A DNA stretch of 64,000 nt from Ulota crispa. Taxonomy: Eukaryota; Streptophyta; Bryopsida; Orthotrichales; Orthotrichaceae. The notes under the pieces are model-generated. The model searched no databases, was not told the DNA's origin, and saw only the letters and a program-made list of their open reading frames with translations. Both the position numbers and the translations under genes were made by a program. Positions 22,489 to 32,811 of the stretch are shown piece after piece (within the stretch, counting starts at the first letter, position 1; the number at the start of each line of letters is the position of its first letter). The stretch lies in NCBI GenBank assembly GCA_963920765.1, contig OY987245.1, positions 24,320,727-24,384,726 of the forward strand, read 5' to 3'.

Positions 22489-23880
22489 TTAATGTACATT
22501 TGGACGTTGATTCGTTAGGTGCATCCCCAAGAGTTCCCGTTTCTGAGCGACTGCTGCGACGGTTTCCCAAATTTTAGGTATTGCCTCCGCTTCTTCATGA
22601 CCAAGTGCGGCATCATCGTCCCCTGCAATGTTTCCTATGGACTGGGGTCCCAGCCGCGGATTCCCTATAACACCAAGCAGATTGTCTACATCCTCTCTAG
22701 ATTGAGCAAGTAGAGTATTATGCAGTATAGCATAGCATATGATGACATCAGGAAGGAAAGAGACTTGGAGATCGGTTTTTTTAGAGAACTCCCTGAAAGT
22801 CTATTTTAAGCTTCCAAATGCATTTTTGACGACGCATAGTCCCTTGCAAAGCCTGCGGTTGATAAAAGTTTCCGCCAACAATAAGTGGATGTTGCCTCAG
22901 TGAGAGACTATTAGCCACAACATCAAAGGGTATCCGAGGTCACCCAACAGATATGGGGAAAATCCATGTGTCTCCATTTGATTGCTGTGTATGTTGTCAT
23001 GTGTGGCAAGATCAAACAGAGTAGACCTACATAACACCCTTGCATCATTTGTGGAGCCAGGCATCCCGAGATACAAGTCGAGGAACCTCTTCTCAGTATC
23101 TACCACTGCTTGACAATTCAAGGAATACCCCCTTAACTTGAAGTAAAAGTAGTCCATTGGGCCATGTTGAGGCTTTGCAATTGCAACATGTGTGCCATCA
23201 ATGGCCCCAACGACTGAAGGTAGCCCATAGAGGTTTGAAAATTTCTCTTCTGTCATACAAAGACGATCACCAGTGGGCCATGTAATTTGGTACCTCATGG
23301 TGTCGTTGATGACGTGTACAACGTCACAAAGCACAACGCACACAGTACTTGTCCCAATTGTGAACAGCTCTGAGCAAGCAGAGAAAGGGACTTTGTGACT
23401 GAGCTTGTACAACATGCACGCCACTCGAATGATTATATAGATGGCCGCCCTGTACTTGGTGTCTTTTCTATAGACTAGAGGAGCCACAATGTCAGAAAGT
23501 CAACGAACATCACTTTTCTTCATTCTGAAAAGTTCAACCCATCTCTGATCATCATACTCCTTCATTAGAAACTAGGAGAACCATGTTGTTGACTTGGGTT
23601 TAACCCAAAAACCAAGCTCCTCATTCACAACAAACGAAGAAGTGCATAAACGAAACGAGTGTAGGCAAGATTGCATGGATGAAAGGGGATCGGCAATGGA
23701 GTCTGCAACGGCTTCAAGTATAGCGTGTACAGTAGTTTTGTCTACATCTTGGTTTTCAAGAGCAGGAAGTAACGATACGAGCGTGTCTTCTTCACTTAAA
23801 ATTTGAATCAGCACCCACAACCCCAACATGATTGCCAAATGGGATTCGGAAGGGCCATCCATAGCGAATGAACCTGCCAT
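22489..23880 (-). pseudogene. Harbinger transposase (HARBI1/ALP1-type DDE) remnant
   Basis: A single minus-strand frame runs from ATG at 23,880 to TAA at 22,489, interrupted by four in-frame stops but no frameshift that I could find. Motifs in order: DDQRWVELFRM, VIVDxxY-like helix region, VVGAIDGTHVAI (first catalytic Asp), PGSTNDARVL (second Asp), LLGDLGYPLMLWL, then CVVKNAFGSLK where the family normally has VVENAFG. The third catalytic acid thus appears to be Lys. The C-terminus has FLPDVIICYAILHNTLL. Stops are at about 23,572, 23,510, 22,897 and 22,810. It is clearly inactive. Confidence 0.85.
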
Positions 23881-24857
23881 AACCCACCAAACATTAGTGC
23901 TTCAACATACCCTAAACCCTCCCATATCGTCCACCAAAAATGCCAGAGAAGACAAAAACCAAAAGAAAAGAATCAAAAGGAAATCTAATTTCTGTCGATG
24001 CATTTATAGAAATTTATAGCAATTTGTGAGGTTTCGTTGAAAATGCAAGCAAGTCAGTTCATAATGAAGAAGACCATGCAAAGACCCCTTCCAAAACACT
24101 TTCTGGAAACTGACCGTGAACAAAACAAAAACTCAAACAATCTATCTAGAATTCTAGAAACGAAATCACCATCGCTAAAAGAATATGTACCTTAAGAACG
24201 TCAAAGCCCTCCTAATGCAGCTACCGGGCAACAAAGGAGACTGAACCAATTCTGACAGGGCACCAAGTATCAAAGCGCAAGCTATCACTCCCAGAACCGC
24301 GACTCCAAAACGGCGTGACCACCAGAATTTTGTATCAACAGTATTTCATTGCAATTCACACTCAATACGCAACAACAACAACAACAATCGTGAAACAGAA
24401 ACAAACCACCGCTCCTCCAAAATCCTAATGAACAGGCAAAAATTGAGAACGAGATTATGAGGAAGAGGCGCACGCAAGGCAACAGGCCATGAAGCTGCAA
24501 GAGAGAATATTAAAGAAGACAACTCACAAAGAAGACAGAGTAGACAAGTGAAGAGCAAGTGAAAGCAACGCCGGATTGTTAGTTTTACAAAGGAACAAGA
24601 AGAGGTTTAGAAAACAACAACAGGAGGTGTGAACCCCTATCAATTTAATGAGTGCCCCTTGCCAGCTGGCACTAAAAAACGAACAAGGTAATTTGTAAAG
24701 TTCCCAGGTGAGAACATCCCTTCCATAACAACCCCTTCTATTTTTAATTGTTTTTGACCTGGTGGGGCCACGTTTGCAAAACCACTTTAATGGGACAGTG
24801 AAATTTTTTAAGCTATAAAATCGCTTCTTTGTAGAGTTGGGTGGGAATGGGGCATAA

Positions 24858-26019
24858 GGGTATGTTCACAGTTGGTGTTAGGATGGGTACTAGCAAAATG
24901 AATGTAGTTTAATGGTGTGTTCAAATGCATCTATTTTTCTTTGACTACTGCCACTCTTAATCCTTGAACATTTAGGCCAAAACATGCGGACTCTTGCCTT
25001 CTTGGGAGTCTGTCCCAAAAAAATGATGTTGCTTACTCAAAAACAAAATCCTGTCAACTTCACTGCTAAAAAACAGAGATAGGTAAGGTCTATGCCAAAT
25101 AGAAGAAAAATCAAAATGATCCATAGTATGGATTGAAACTTTATAGCAGTCAATGCCGCATTGAACAAAGGGGTCTAAGCATTTTTTGGGGAGGGATTGC
25201 ACTTCAATTAGCTGCCATAGGCAGAGAAGAGAAAAAAATGAGTTGAAATTACAGTAGGGCATGGGGTCCGCAGGCTTGTGTGGCCCTGCCAATTTGCAAG
25301 ACTTCTTGACACATCATTCAAATTCTCTGGAGCATTCAGTTTGGGATGCTCACAACAAACAAACAGGAGACCGGGAGGACTATGGGAACGACCCAACACG
25401 TCCCCGGAGTCCCATGTGAACCCAGACGTACTCTCATAGCACAACCTGACACCTCAGACTTCTCTTGCGCAGCAACGATCTACCACCGGCTACTTCTACT
25501 GGTTCTCATGGTCCCCTTCCACTTAGTGAATTCCTTGAAAAGTAAATTTCACTATTCCCTACTCCACATTGGTCCCCACTCGCGTGGTACAATAATCTAG
25601 ACCCCCAAAACCAATTTGGTGTTTGAGTACTCCATATCCTAACCCCCATGTCTCATTTTTTTGAAAGTACCAACCGGATCTAGACTTATTTTGGCAATAA
25701 TTCAATTCTAGGCGCCCCATTTTTCGCCTGTGGGGCGCTCAAGGGTTAACTCTTGATTGAGTGTCCAAAGGTGGAAAGGACAAGAGCCTAACTTGCGTGC
25801 AATCAAAGAGCTCATGTGGATTGAAAAATACGATTCATAGGATCAGACCATACAAATTGTTAGCGGAAAGCATCTCCATCATGCTGGGCTTGATTAGAGG
25901 TGGTTTCATTGAACGTGCAATGAGATTATATTGATCAAAATTGAGTTGACCTAGCTTTTTGAGAGACAGGATGCTATCTCTTGAGCGCTCTAGGATTAAC
26001 ACCAAGTGTGAACATACCC
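24858..26019. mobile_element. Tourist-like MITE (family H) split by a TTAA-flanked insertion
   Basis: The ends are GGGTATGTTCACAGTTGGTG at left and CACCAAGTGTGAACATACCC at right, flanked by TAA direct repeats (24,855-24,857 and 26,020-26,022), the TWA signature of PIF/Harbinger. The first 99 bp and last 20 bp together match the 119-bp copy at 31,558-31,676. Everything between is an insertion bounded by TTAA. Confidence 0.85.
24957..25999. mobile_element. TTAA-flanked insertion inside the Tourist MITE (one or two elements)
   Basis: Starts TTAATCCTTGAACATTT and ends GCGCTCTAGGATTAA, with another TTAA junction at 25,746-25,749 (CGCTCAAGGGTTAACTCTTG). It may be one element of 1,043 bp or two back-to-back elements (24,957-25,749 and 25,746-25,999). 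Removing it leaves CTCTTAACACC, matching CTCCTAACACC in the intact relative at 31,558-31,676. Open frames inside are short and resemble nothing I know. Confidence 0.75.
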
Positions 26020-26157
26020 TAATTTTGTATGAAAAAATAGAGTATAATTTTTAAATATTCTATAAGTATCCAAAATCAAGACTATACTAGGACTGAGCAT
26101 TTCACGAGTATGTTTGTTTCCCTTTCTAATAAATAAGATATTTTTGAAATATTGGTT

Positions 26158-30923: not shown

Positions 30924-32811
30924 TTAATAGTGGATGGCTTGGGTTCCGTCGGCATCCGGATTGCAAGAGTCTTGCACCCAAAACTTGTGCAACATCTTGA
31001 GCAGCTGCGACGCCTTCCGCTTCGCCCGCGCCGTGCAGTCGCTCTGGATGAGCAGCAACAGCTTCGTGGGCGCGCATTGCGCCACCGCAGCCTCGCACAT
31101 GGCCGTGGAGTCGCTGCACATGGCGCTCAGCGTGCCTGCTGCGTACTCCGTTCCGCGGTCCGACACTTTGAGGATGAGCTCCACCAGCACTGGCACCGCC
31201 AATGCGTGCTCGATCATGGCCGCTTTGCCTTCCTCCGTGGTGCCTAAAAGCTCCAGCGTCGCCAGCGCTTTCTCCGCCGAGGCCGAACGCGCCCTGGGCA
31301 GCATCTCCAGCAGCGACGCCACCGCTCCCACCTCCACAGCCCTGCACCACACACGCAGATGCTTAGATCCTCATGTAACATACAACATTGTTTCAGATGC
31401 ATCCCGACGACAACATTCTAATACCATAGTGACATTCTAGAATTAGCTAAAACCCAGTTGATGTGAGCAATCACCACAAGAAAAACATGTCCTAAACAAC
31501 TAATTTACAACAACTACACATGTCCTACACAACTATACAATGACTCAATTACAGTTGGGGTATGTTCACACTTGGTGTTAGGGGTATTAGCAATATGAAT
31601 AGAGTATGAAGGTGTGTCCAAATGTATCTAATTTTCCTCCGCTAATACCCTCCTAACACCAGGTGTAAACATACCCTTGTTTAGGACACGCTTTTCTTAT
31701 AGTAAATTGGTTGGAAAGCATGTCGAATGTTTGGTCAGCTATGGAAGAGCGCAAAAATGGGCAATTGAATTGGCAAATATGACCTCTACATTACGATCTG
31801 AGATTAGAATTTCGTGCTCGCTCATTAAGAGATTATGGACTTGTGACGAATTCAAGAGGAGATTTAGAGAGGATGGGTTAGGGAGATTGAAGAGGATTGA
31901 GTGTGTGAGGATACGTACAGGTAGCGGTTCTCGCGGTGTAAGCAGAGGGCAAGTAACGTCCTCGTCGCTAGTTTCACAAGCTTGAGGTGCTTCTCGTCGC
32001 ACAGCATCGAATTAAGCGCGTCCATCACGCCCGTTGCGCTATCCCCCATCGTCCCCTTGAAGCTCTCCTCCAGCGACAGCTTCTCAAGCAGCAAGAACGC
32101 GCTTTCTCGCGCATCTTTTCTTCCTTTGCGCACATACCACATCACCACCGACAGAAACGCCGGGGTGGCCATCTCCCGCACCGCAGCCTCGTCGAATTCC
32201 GATAACGCAGCGAGCGCGGACAAGCTGTCCTCCAGGACGTGAGGCACGTGCCGTTCGTCAACCGAGTCGCGGGCACCCGAGCTGTCCGTCACCGCGAGAT
32301 CACTGGACAGTAACAGCGTGATCAACGAGGACGCCACCCCGGAGGAGCAGATCAGCTCTCTCGAGCCGTGGTTGCTACTCAGCTTGTTGTTCAAGCTGCT
32401 GATCGTCATCTTCGTCACATTACCAGCATTGATTTCGGCCAAAAGCTCCTCCAAGTCAGTGGACGCGTCCGACGCGACGGACGACCTAGCGTCCGTATTG
32501 GCAAAGCTGGAGCTTGCGTCGCCACCGTCACTAGCGGAGGTGGACGGGGAGTCCGGCACGGGGCAGGGCAACGGAATGTCGTCGATCTCCGACGTCGCCA
32601 TGTCGCAATGGCGAACCGTATTAGCATGGCTTAGCAGAAGCTCACTTGGGTTCATCATCTGCTGCTGATCGACGAACTCCGGAACACCCCCTGGCGGCGT
32701 GCGCGGGCTCAACACCGAGCTCGCACAATTCCCGAATATGCCGCAGATGAAGAGCTGCCCTCGCGCTTGCTGCAGCCTCGCATTTTGCTTCTGGTTGCGC
32801 ATCCCGACCAT
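30924..32811 (-). CDS. ARM-repeat protein related to plant U-box (PUB) proteins but lacking the U-box, 436 residues
   Basis: Two exons on the minus strand, 32811-31919 and 31341-30924, join in frame (1,311 bp with stop). The N-terminus MVGMRNQKQNARLQQARGQL is followed by a Ser/Asp-rich low-complexity region. Armadillo-type helical repeats fill residues about 120-420: DLEELLAEINAGN, VLEDSLSALAALSEFDEAA, SAFLLLEKLSLEE, AEKALATLELLGTTEEGKAA, YAAGTLSAMCSDS and KRKASQLLKMLHKFW. The tail motif resembles PUB E3 ligases of the ARM class, but no U-box precedes the repeats. An in-frame TAA lies eight codons upstream of the ATG, so the U-box is not simply missed in this exon. Function could be scaffold or competitor of PUB ligases (inference). 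The intron carries two nested MITEs. Confidence 0.85.
31472..31704. mobile_element. CACTA-derived MITE in the ARM-gene intron, host of a nested MITE
   Basis: Left end CACCACAAGAAAAACATG and right end ACGCTTTTCTTATAGTA are imperfect inverted repeats of the CACTACAAGAAA type. Flanks are AAT on both sides (31,469-31,471 and 31,705-31,707). Internal GTCCTAAACAACTAATTTAC matches the CACTA MITE at 2,843-2,984. Confidence 0.75.
31558..31676. mobile_element. Tourist-like MITE (family H), 119 bp, nested in the CACTA MITE
   Basis: Ends GGGTATGTTCACACTTGGTG and CACCAGGTGTAAACATACCC form 25-bp inverted repeats. The flank is TTG on both sides (31,555-31,557 and 31,677-31,679), a 3-bp duplication. This is the uninterrupted relative of the element at 24,858-26,019. 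Confidence 0.88.

Follow-up and report, generated by a model that had tools for sequence, protein, structure and literature searches.

The window, by which we mean the whole stretch of 64,000 nucleotides of Ulota crispa that was analysed, begins with exons that encode an XRN 5'-3' exonuclease carrying a CCHC zinc knuckle (7-2413). A PIF/Harbinger transposase fragment (DDE_Tnp_4, E 3.9e-12) lies on the minus strand at 22897-23487, and it is possibly a relative of the source of the Tourist-like MITE that starts at 24858. The locus described here consists of this MITE and the DNA inserted in it, and it reads in order TAA, left part of the MITE, TTAA, element A, TTAA, element B, TTAA, right part of the MITE and TAA.

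The interrupted MITE and its insert

The left and right parts of the host MITE occupy 24858-24956 and 26000-26019 (both plus strand), the left part being recognised from the inverted arms and from matches to the joined form, and the right part from the sequence and the inverted arms. Its outer arms are 27 bases long and 93% complementary, its terminal inverted repeats (TIRs) read GGGTATG, and a 3-bp TAA duplication stands on both sides (24855-24857 and 26020-26022), as in Tourist-like elements of the PIF/Harbinger type. TAA is also found beside many of its relatives in the alignment, in a number that was not counted. A reading of the sequence alone had described a Tourist-like MITE with TAA flanks interrupted exactly at a TTAA, and the parts, arms and borders are as it described. 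Copies of the tetramer stand at 24957-24960 and 25996-25999.

When both parts were fused at one TTAA and the resulting 129 bases were used as the query for a genome search, at least 39 other places matched nearly the full length at 87-90%. The possibility that the middle segment belongs to a longer ancestral Tourist element, which the sequence-only reading had named as a threat to its own interpretation, was thus rejected. We aligned 21 uninterrupted relatives, that is, 19 fetched of the 39, one in locus L050 and one in the window. TTAA stands at the site in 17 of the 21 and a variant with one changed base in the other four (TCAA, ATAA, TAAA and CTAA); L063 and L064 are identical, and counting them once gives TTAA in 16 of 20. 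The sequence before insertion was therefore most likely TTAA. A TTAA near the right end of a Tourist-like MITE is now occupied by the insert, with the tetramer on either side. The relative in the window (31558-31676, plus strand) had been proposed as the uninterrupted form, and uninterrupted it is, but its site reads CTAA instead of TTAA. TTG stands on either flank of this copy, not TAA.

The insert adds 1039 bases. It had been taken for one insertion, a reading that we rejected, since the sequence falls into two parts that match different repeat families and meet at a TTAA: elements A and B lie in tandem with a third TTAA between them. Element A, a non-coding piggyBac-type element delimited by local alignment, occupies 24961-25745 and has the ends TTAATCCTTGAAC and TTAACCCTTGAGCGCCCC. 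It is followed by the common TTAA (25746-25749) and by element B (25750-25995), which was aligned as a diverged and apparently old copy of a MITE family of about 249 bp with the ends TTAACCCYTGAGCGCC. With the TTAAs counted, A extends over 24957-25749 and B over 25746-25999, the borders being set by local alignment.

A query of 1162 bases (A, B and the MITE) was searched against the genome of 275 Mb in 157 contigs, and the best 40 of 1,098 candidates were scored. Besides the query itself, these held one whole relative of A at 71% identity (L002) and one partial relative of A (L031); the remaining 37 match the query over roughly its last 240 bases, which is B. Apart from the window copy, the A family is thus represented by one whole and one partial copy among 40 scored places, and the query used for them contained B as well. 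We fetched 27 relatives together with at least some hundred bases of flanking sequence. The body of B is present in 25 of them and that of A in two (L002 and L031), and no relative holds both. Because the query with which the first B matches were found included the end of A, the set is biased to B copies that have another end next to them (L008 and L018). TTAA is found at both ends in 20 of the 25 B loci, 19 of them 245-259 bp long and one, L026, 447 bp. The longest stop-free run of B in the window is 57 codons. B is a MITE, being short, non-coding and present in many copies of similar length. The ends of the B family and of L002 are TTAACCCYTGAGCGCC, with a TIR starting CCC, and three of the four ends of A and B in the window read TCC or CTC instead of CCC.

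Empty sites and the abundance of TTAA-bounded ends

The joined flanks of ten other elements were searched together, and the best 40 of 3,244 candidates were scored. Paralogs spanning the join were found for three of the ten loci (L005, L017 and L026), all of them copies of B. The empty site reads TTAA in the one fetched paralog of L005, in five of seven paralogs of L026 (with one-base changes in the other two), where B has its greatest length, and in all eight paralogs of L017. The filled copy of L017 (641-889, compared with paralogs L079-L086) is without 14 bases directly beside the TTAA, a deletion that could have occurred either during the insertion or afterwards. No spanning paralog of L002, L003, L007, L020, L027, L034 or L035 was among the best 40 of 3,244, and as scoring covered these 40, the seven loci are no evidence against TTAA insertion. 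One of the seven, L002, is the whole relative of A, and its joined flanks gave no separate empty site for A alone among the same best 40. A TTAA target duplication is thus seen at the window locus, for A and B together, and at three further B loci, in all cases from paralogous empty sites within one genome. The 3-bp TWA duplication of PIF/Harbinger elements is not what flanks A and B; the duplication is TTAA. A target duplication of another kind at such sites would, according to the sequence-only reading, have spoken against piggyBac, and none of the examined sites, paralogous ones from one genome, shows it.

The ends themselves are abundant. TTAACCCYTGAGCGCC occurs 2,479 times genome-wide and its reversed control not once, which excludes chance for the end motif. 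The same 12-mer without TTAA, CCCYTGAGCGCC, occurs 2,810 times (reversed control 6), so that 88% of its occurrences (2,479 of 2,810) follow directly after a TTAA. A general end motif, TTAACCCYTNANNGNCC, has 31,318 occurrences in 275 Mb, compared with nine for its reversed control; it was drawn from the ends of coding loci and is strict, so that ends which have decayed, as three of the four in the window have, escape it. If each match is an end, the genome would hold about 15,600 elements or more at two ends each. Strict end pairs spaced 214-244 bases apart number 633.

Two strict ends have a TTAA in common at 491 places in the genome. Sampled DNA has 3.9-5.6 TTAAs per kb, from which we estimate that chance would give 160-230 such places, and the excess is two- to threefold. 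A special targeting of element ends was considered and set aside, as clustering of repeats could explain an excess of this size. At L018 (363-1088) three TTAA-bounded elements follow one another with common TTAAs.

Transposases in the genome and a probable source of the elements

A profile search with PF13843 (DDE_Tnp_1_7, the piggyBac DDD family), in which 116 of 528 candidates were scored, gave at least 120 matches above the cut-off, the best at E 1.3e-73. The profile had no match in any of 14 control genomes, from which the family may simply be absent. The coding source had been reported as absent, which stands for the window, where none of the listed matches lies, but does not stand for the genome, where transposases are present elsewhere and are mostly broken in the copies scored. 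In the PDB, L047 and L042 match piggyBac of Trichoplusia ni (T. ni) and piggyBat, at E values from 4.4e-26 to 1.5e-18; D268 and D346 are aligned between L047 and T. ni piggyBac, and all three acidic positions between L042 and piggyBat. A motif scan recovered the full catalytic triad in six of 20 loci (L039, L040, L042, L045, L048 and L056). Judged by their sequences, the predicted transposases fit the catalytic triad D268/D346/D447 of the piggyBac superfamily. Most transposase copies scored hold stops. L052 has a stop and an N in place of the second catalytic aspartate, and a search with the domain of L047 showed that the close relatives scored carry stops, L047 itself being stop-free and truncated. 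A long tandem array of a 4-base unit, extending over hundreds of bases (about 5860-6530 in L039; IHTY... in translation), adjoins the transposase domain there.

The ends of the coding loci were studied in 20 fetched loci of 9.9 kb, by taking the best inverted repeat that adjoins a given tetramer on either side of the gene. With TTAA, 11 of the 20 loci reached a score of at least 8, compared with 0-3 of 20 for each of 11 control tetramers, among which AATT gave one score of 14. All 11 TTAA repeats start with CC or CT (that of L039 by a tie with a non-CC pair), and none of the control repeats does. The other nine loci, L047 and L054 among these, gave no TTAA TIR pair at score 8. Given the density of TTAA ends in this genome, single end pairs may be borrowed from neighbouring MITEs, and the left end of L052, at 707, also borders another element. 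In both L037 and L042 the domain match begins 2,524 bases from the left end, and this identical spacing argues for ends that belong to these loci themselves.

Piggybac-superfamily membership of A and B is well supported by these findings. The proposal of a piggyBac-type TTAA duplication was borne out by empty sites for the insert in the window and for three other B copies, together with the DDD transposases that the genome encodes. We consider it very likely that A and B at the TTAA of the MITE are, as a whole, piggyBac-type elements moved by such a transposase. A DDD transposase encoded elsewhere in the genome would have bound the elements at their TTAACCCYTGAGCGCC ends, excised them and inserted them at TTAA sites. 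Either A or B would have entered the MITE first, and the other would then have gone into a border TTAA, in either order.

As to the source, a piggyBac DDD transposase with matching ends was sought, as the sequence-only reading had advised, and was found in the same genome at L052 and L038, where neighbouring ends are dense; the assignment to an exact clade is of moderate strength. In domain identity to L047, L038, L052 and L054 stand at 62-66%, followed by L042 and L037 at 50-51%. Ends of the AGCGCC or AGCACC type adjoin L038, L047, L052 and L054, those of L047 and L054 having been selected by searching for a motif of exactly this type, which favours the answer. Other types are found at L042 and L037 (CACCGCC/CATYGCC) and elsewhere (AAATGCC or AAGGACC). 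Within the clade, L052 (GAGCGCC) and L038 (AAGCGCC/AAGCACC) pass the paired-end test, and L047 and L054 fail.

Likeness of the ends beyond the TIR was compared with the first 20 bases left out, in 168 comparisons with 300 shuffles. The right end of A and the left end of L052 gave the highest value of the 168 (z 6.7), and none of the 300 shuffles was as high. The next-best likenesses (z 4.0-4.9) include other clades, so that the value for L047 (z 4.4) is not distinct from noise. A likeness of the L047 left end obtained with 60 shuffles (z 4.8) was dropped, as in the wider comparison the pair of A and L052 alone stood out, and the odds on the source clade were lowered for the same reason. B showed no subterminal likeness to any clade end in the 168 comparisons. 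With two of four loci passing the paired-end test and B without likeness to the clade, the link is moderate, and we think it somewhat probable that the clade of L038, L047, L052 and L054, with AGCGCC-type ends, is the source of A and B.

It could well be instead that a piggyBac transposase of another clade moved the two elements, and we take this seriously while holding it rather doubtful. Many clades coexist, and the loci retrieved with long flanks were 20 of those matched; the missing likeness of B and the two failures in the paired-end test also point in this direction. Against another clade, the AGCGCC ends belong, among the loci read, to that of L038, L047, L052 and L054, and the right end of A resembles the left end of L052. 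That A and B moved as a unit, as one composite and not in two insertions, seems quite unlikely. They are in direct contact at a common TTAA, and the window alone gives no separation of them, but the two bodies do not occur together in any of the 27 fetched relatives, and back-to-back ends are common in this genome, as the shared TTAAs and the three elements in a row at L018 illustrate. The DDE_Tnp_4 fragment in the window and the type of the host MITE would suit A and B being PIF/Harbinger elements that duplicate 3 bp (TTA/TAA), have the fourth base within the TIR and were moved by PIF transposases, but this is less probable still, given the full TTAA at the empty sites, ends of A and B that begin CCC compared with GGG in the host MITE, and the same kind of ends flanking 11 of 20 piggyBac-family loci.

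Decay of the family and relation to known transposons

The age of the B family was approached by comparing 19 fetched copies and the window copy, with L008, L022, L024, L026, L028 and L032 left out because of their length or a missing TTAA end. Identity to the majority sequence of these 20 copies is 90-97% in the fetched copies and 84% in the window copy, which looks old. There are 373 substitutions, of which 278 are transitions. Changes from C to T, on either strand, affect 25% of CG sites (61/240), 23% of CHG sites (51/218) and 5% of CHH sites (88/1,618), a pattern that is likely to be the footprint of CG and CHG methylation, as in plants. The piggyBac-type family looks old, as most scored transposases hold stops and B decays from C to T at CG and CHG, and with most scored copies broken it is probably no longer mobile.

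The genome has one clear copy of the LEAFY SAM-domain gene (L057/L077), with the DNA-binding part NKPKMRDYVHCYALHCLD, and five weaker SAM_LFY matches elsewhere that are also above the cut-off. Its aspartate at the position called 312 is presumably of the moss type; aspartate at LEAFY 312 was reportedly described as the moss type by Sayou and colleagues in 2014. A flowering plant had been considered as the host, but this residue suggests a land plant that is probably a moss and possibly another bryophyte.

According to PMC7351741, the catalytic residues of piggyBac are D268, D346 and D447, and it is the only eukaryotic DNA transposon known for TTAA-specific integration together with scarless exit. 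Its use in genome engineering includes plants (PMC10905368), and a methods paper on Physcomitrella names it (PMC5505980). The group is little described in plants. A review names PiggyBac among the MITE superfamilies of angiosperms (PMC10004981), and a table in a fern genome paper gives 1,230 PiggyBac fragments amounting to 122 kb (PMC6890710). A survey from 2025 covers the MITEs of 207 plant genomes, including four from bryophytes; it recognises five superfamilies and one special group, and neither 'piggy' nor 'TTAA' occurs in its main text (PMC12550479). Among the matches listed, judged by title and the start of the abstract, we found no study of native moss piggyBac elements, in a search that left subscription journals and supplements outside; in one moss genome paper (PMC10619864) the apparent mention of 'piggyBac' was the word 'piggybacking'.

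PiggyBac itself is known; what is new is the land-plant host and the scale, on which the main text of the 207-genome survey is silent. It seems probable that piggyBac-type TTAA elements make up one of the main transposon classes of this genome and have long resided in it, that their clades and end classes have diverged together and decayed under CG and CHG methylation, and that they form a MITE superfamily outside the current plant classification. Colonisation to this extent would make a land plant a source of native piggyBac ends and transposases for study, and the results suggest that a whole class can be missed when MITEs of plants are surveyed with five superfamilies, as the main text of PMC12550479 presents them.

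The elements resemble T. ni piggyBac and piggyBat in the TTAA target, in short TIRs starting CCC and in a DDD transposase whose acidic residues align. They differ in their land-plant host, in ends that form a separate class (CCCYTGAGCGCC), in the stops held by most scored copies and in the distance of the transposase domain, which matches the T. ni and piggyBat proteins at the E values given above. The MITEs derived from piggyBac in animals, as accounts of Pokey mPok in Daphnia and of coral elements describe them, are likewise short, non-coding and tied to piggyBac and TTAA, whereas the host here is a land plant with 31,318 matches of the general motif in 275 Mb. With the plant Tourist-like MITEs of the PIF/Harbinger type, the interrupted host shares the 3-bp TAA duplication and the GGGTATG TIRs, but at this locus that element is the target of the insertion and not the element inserted.
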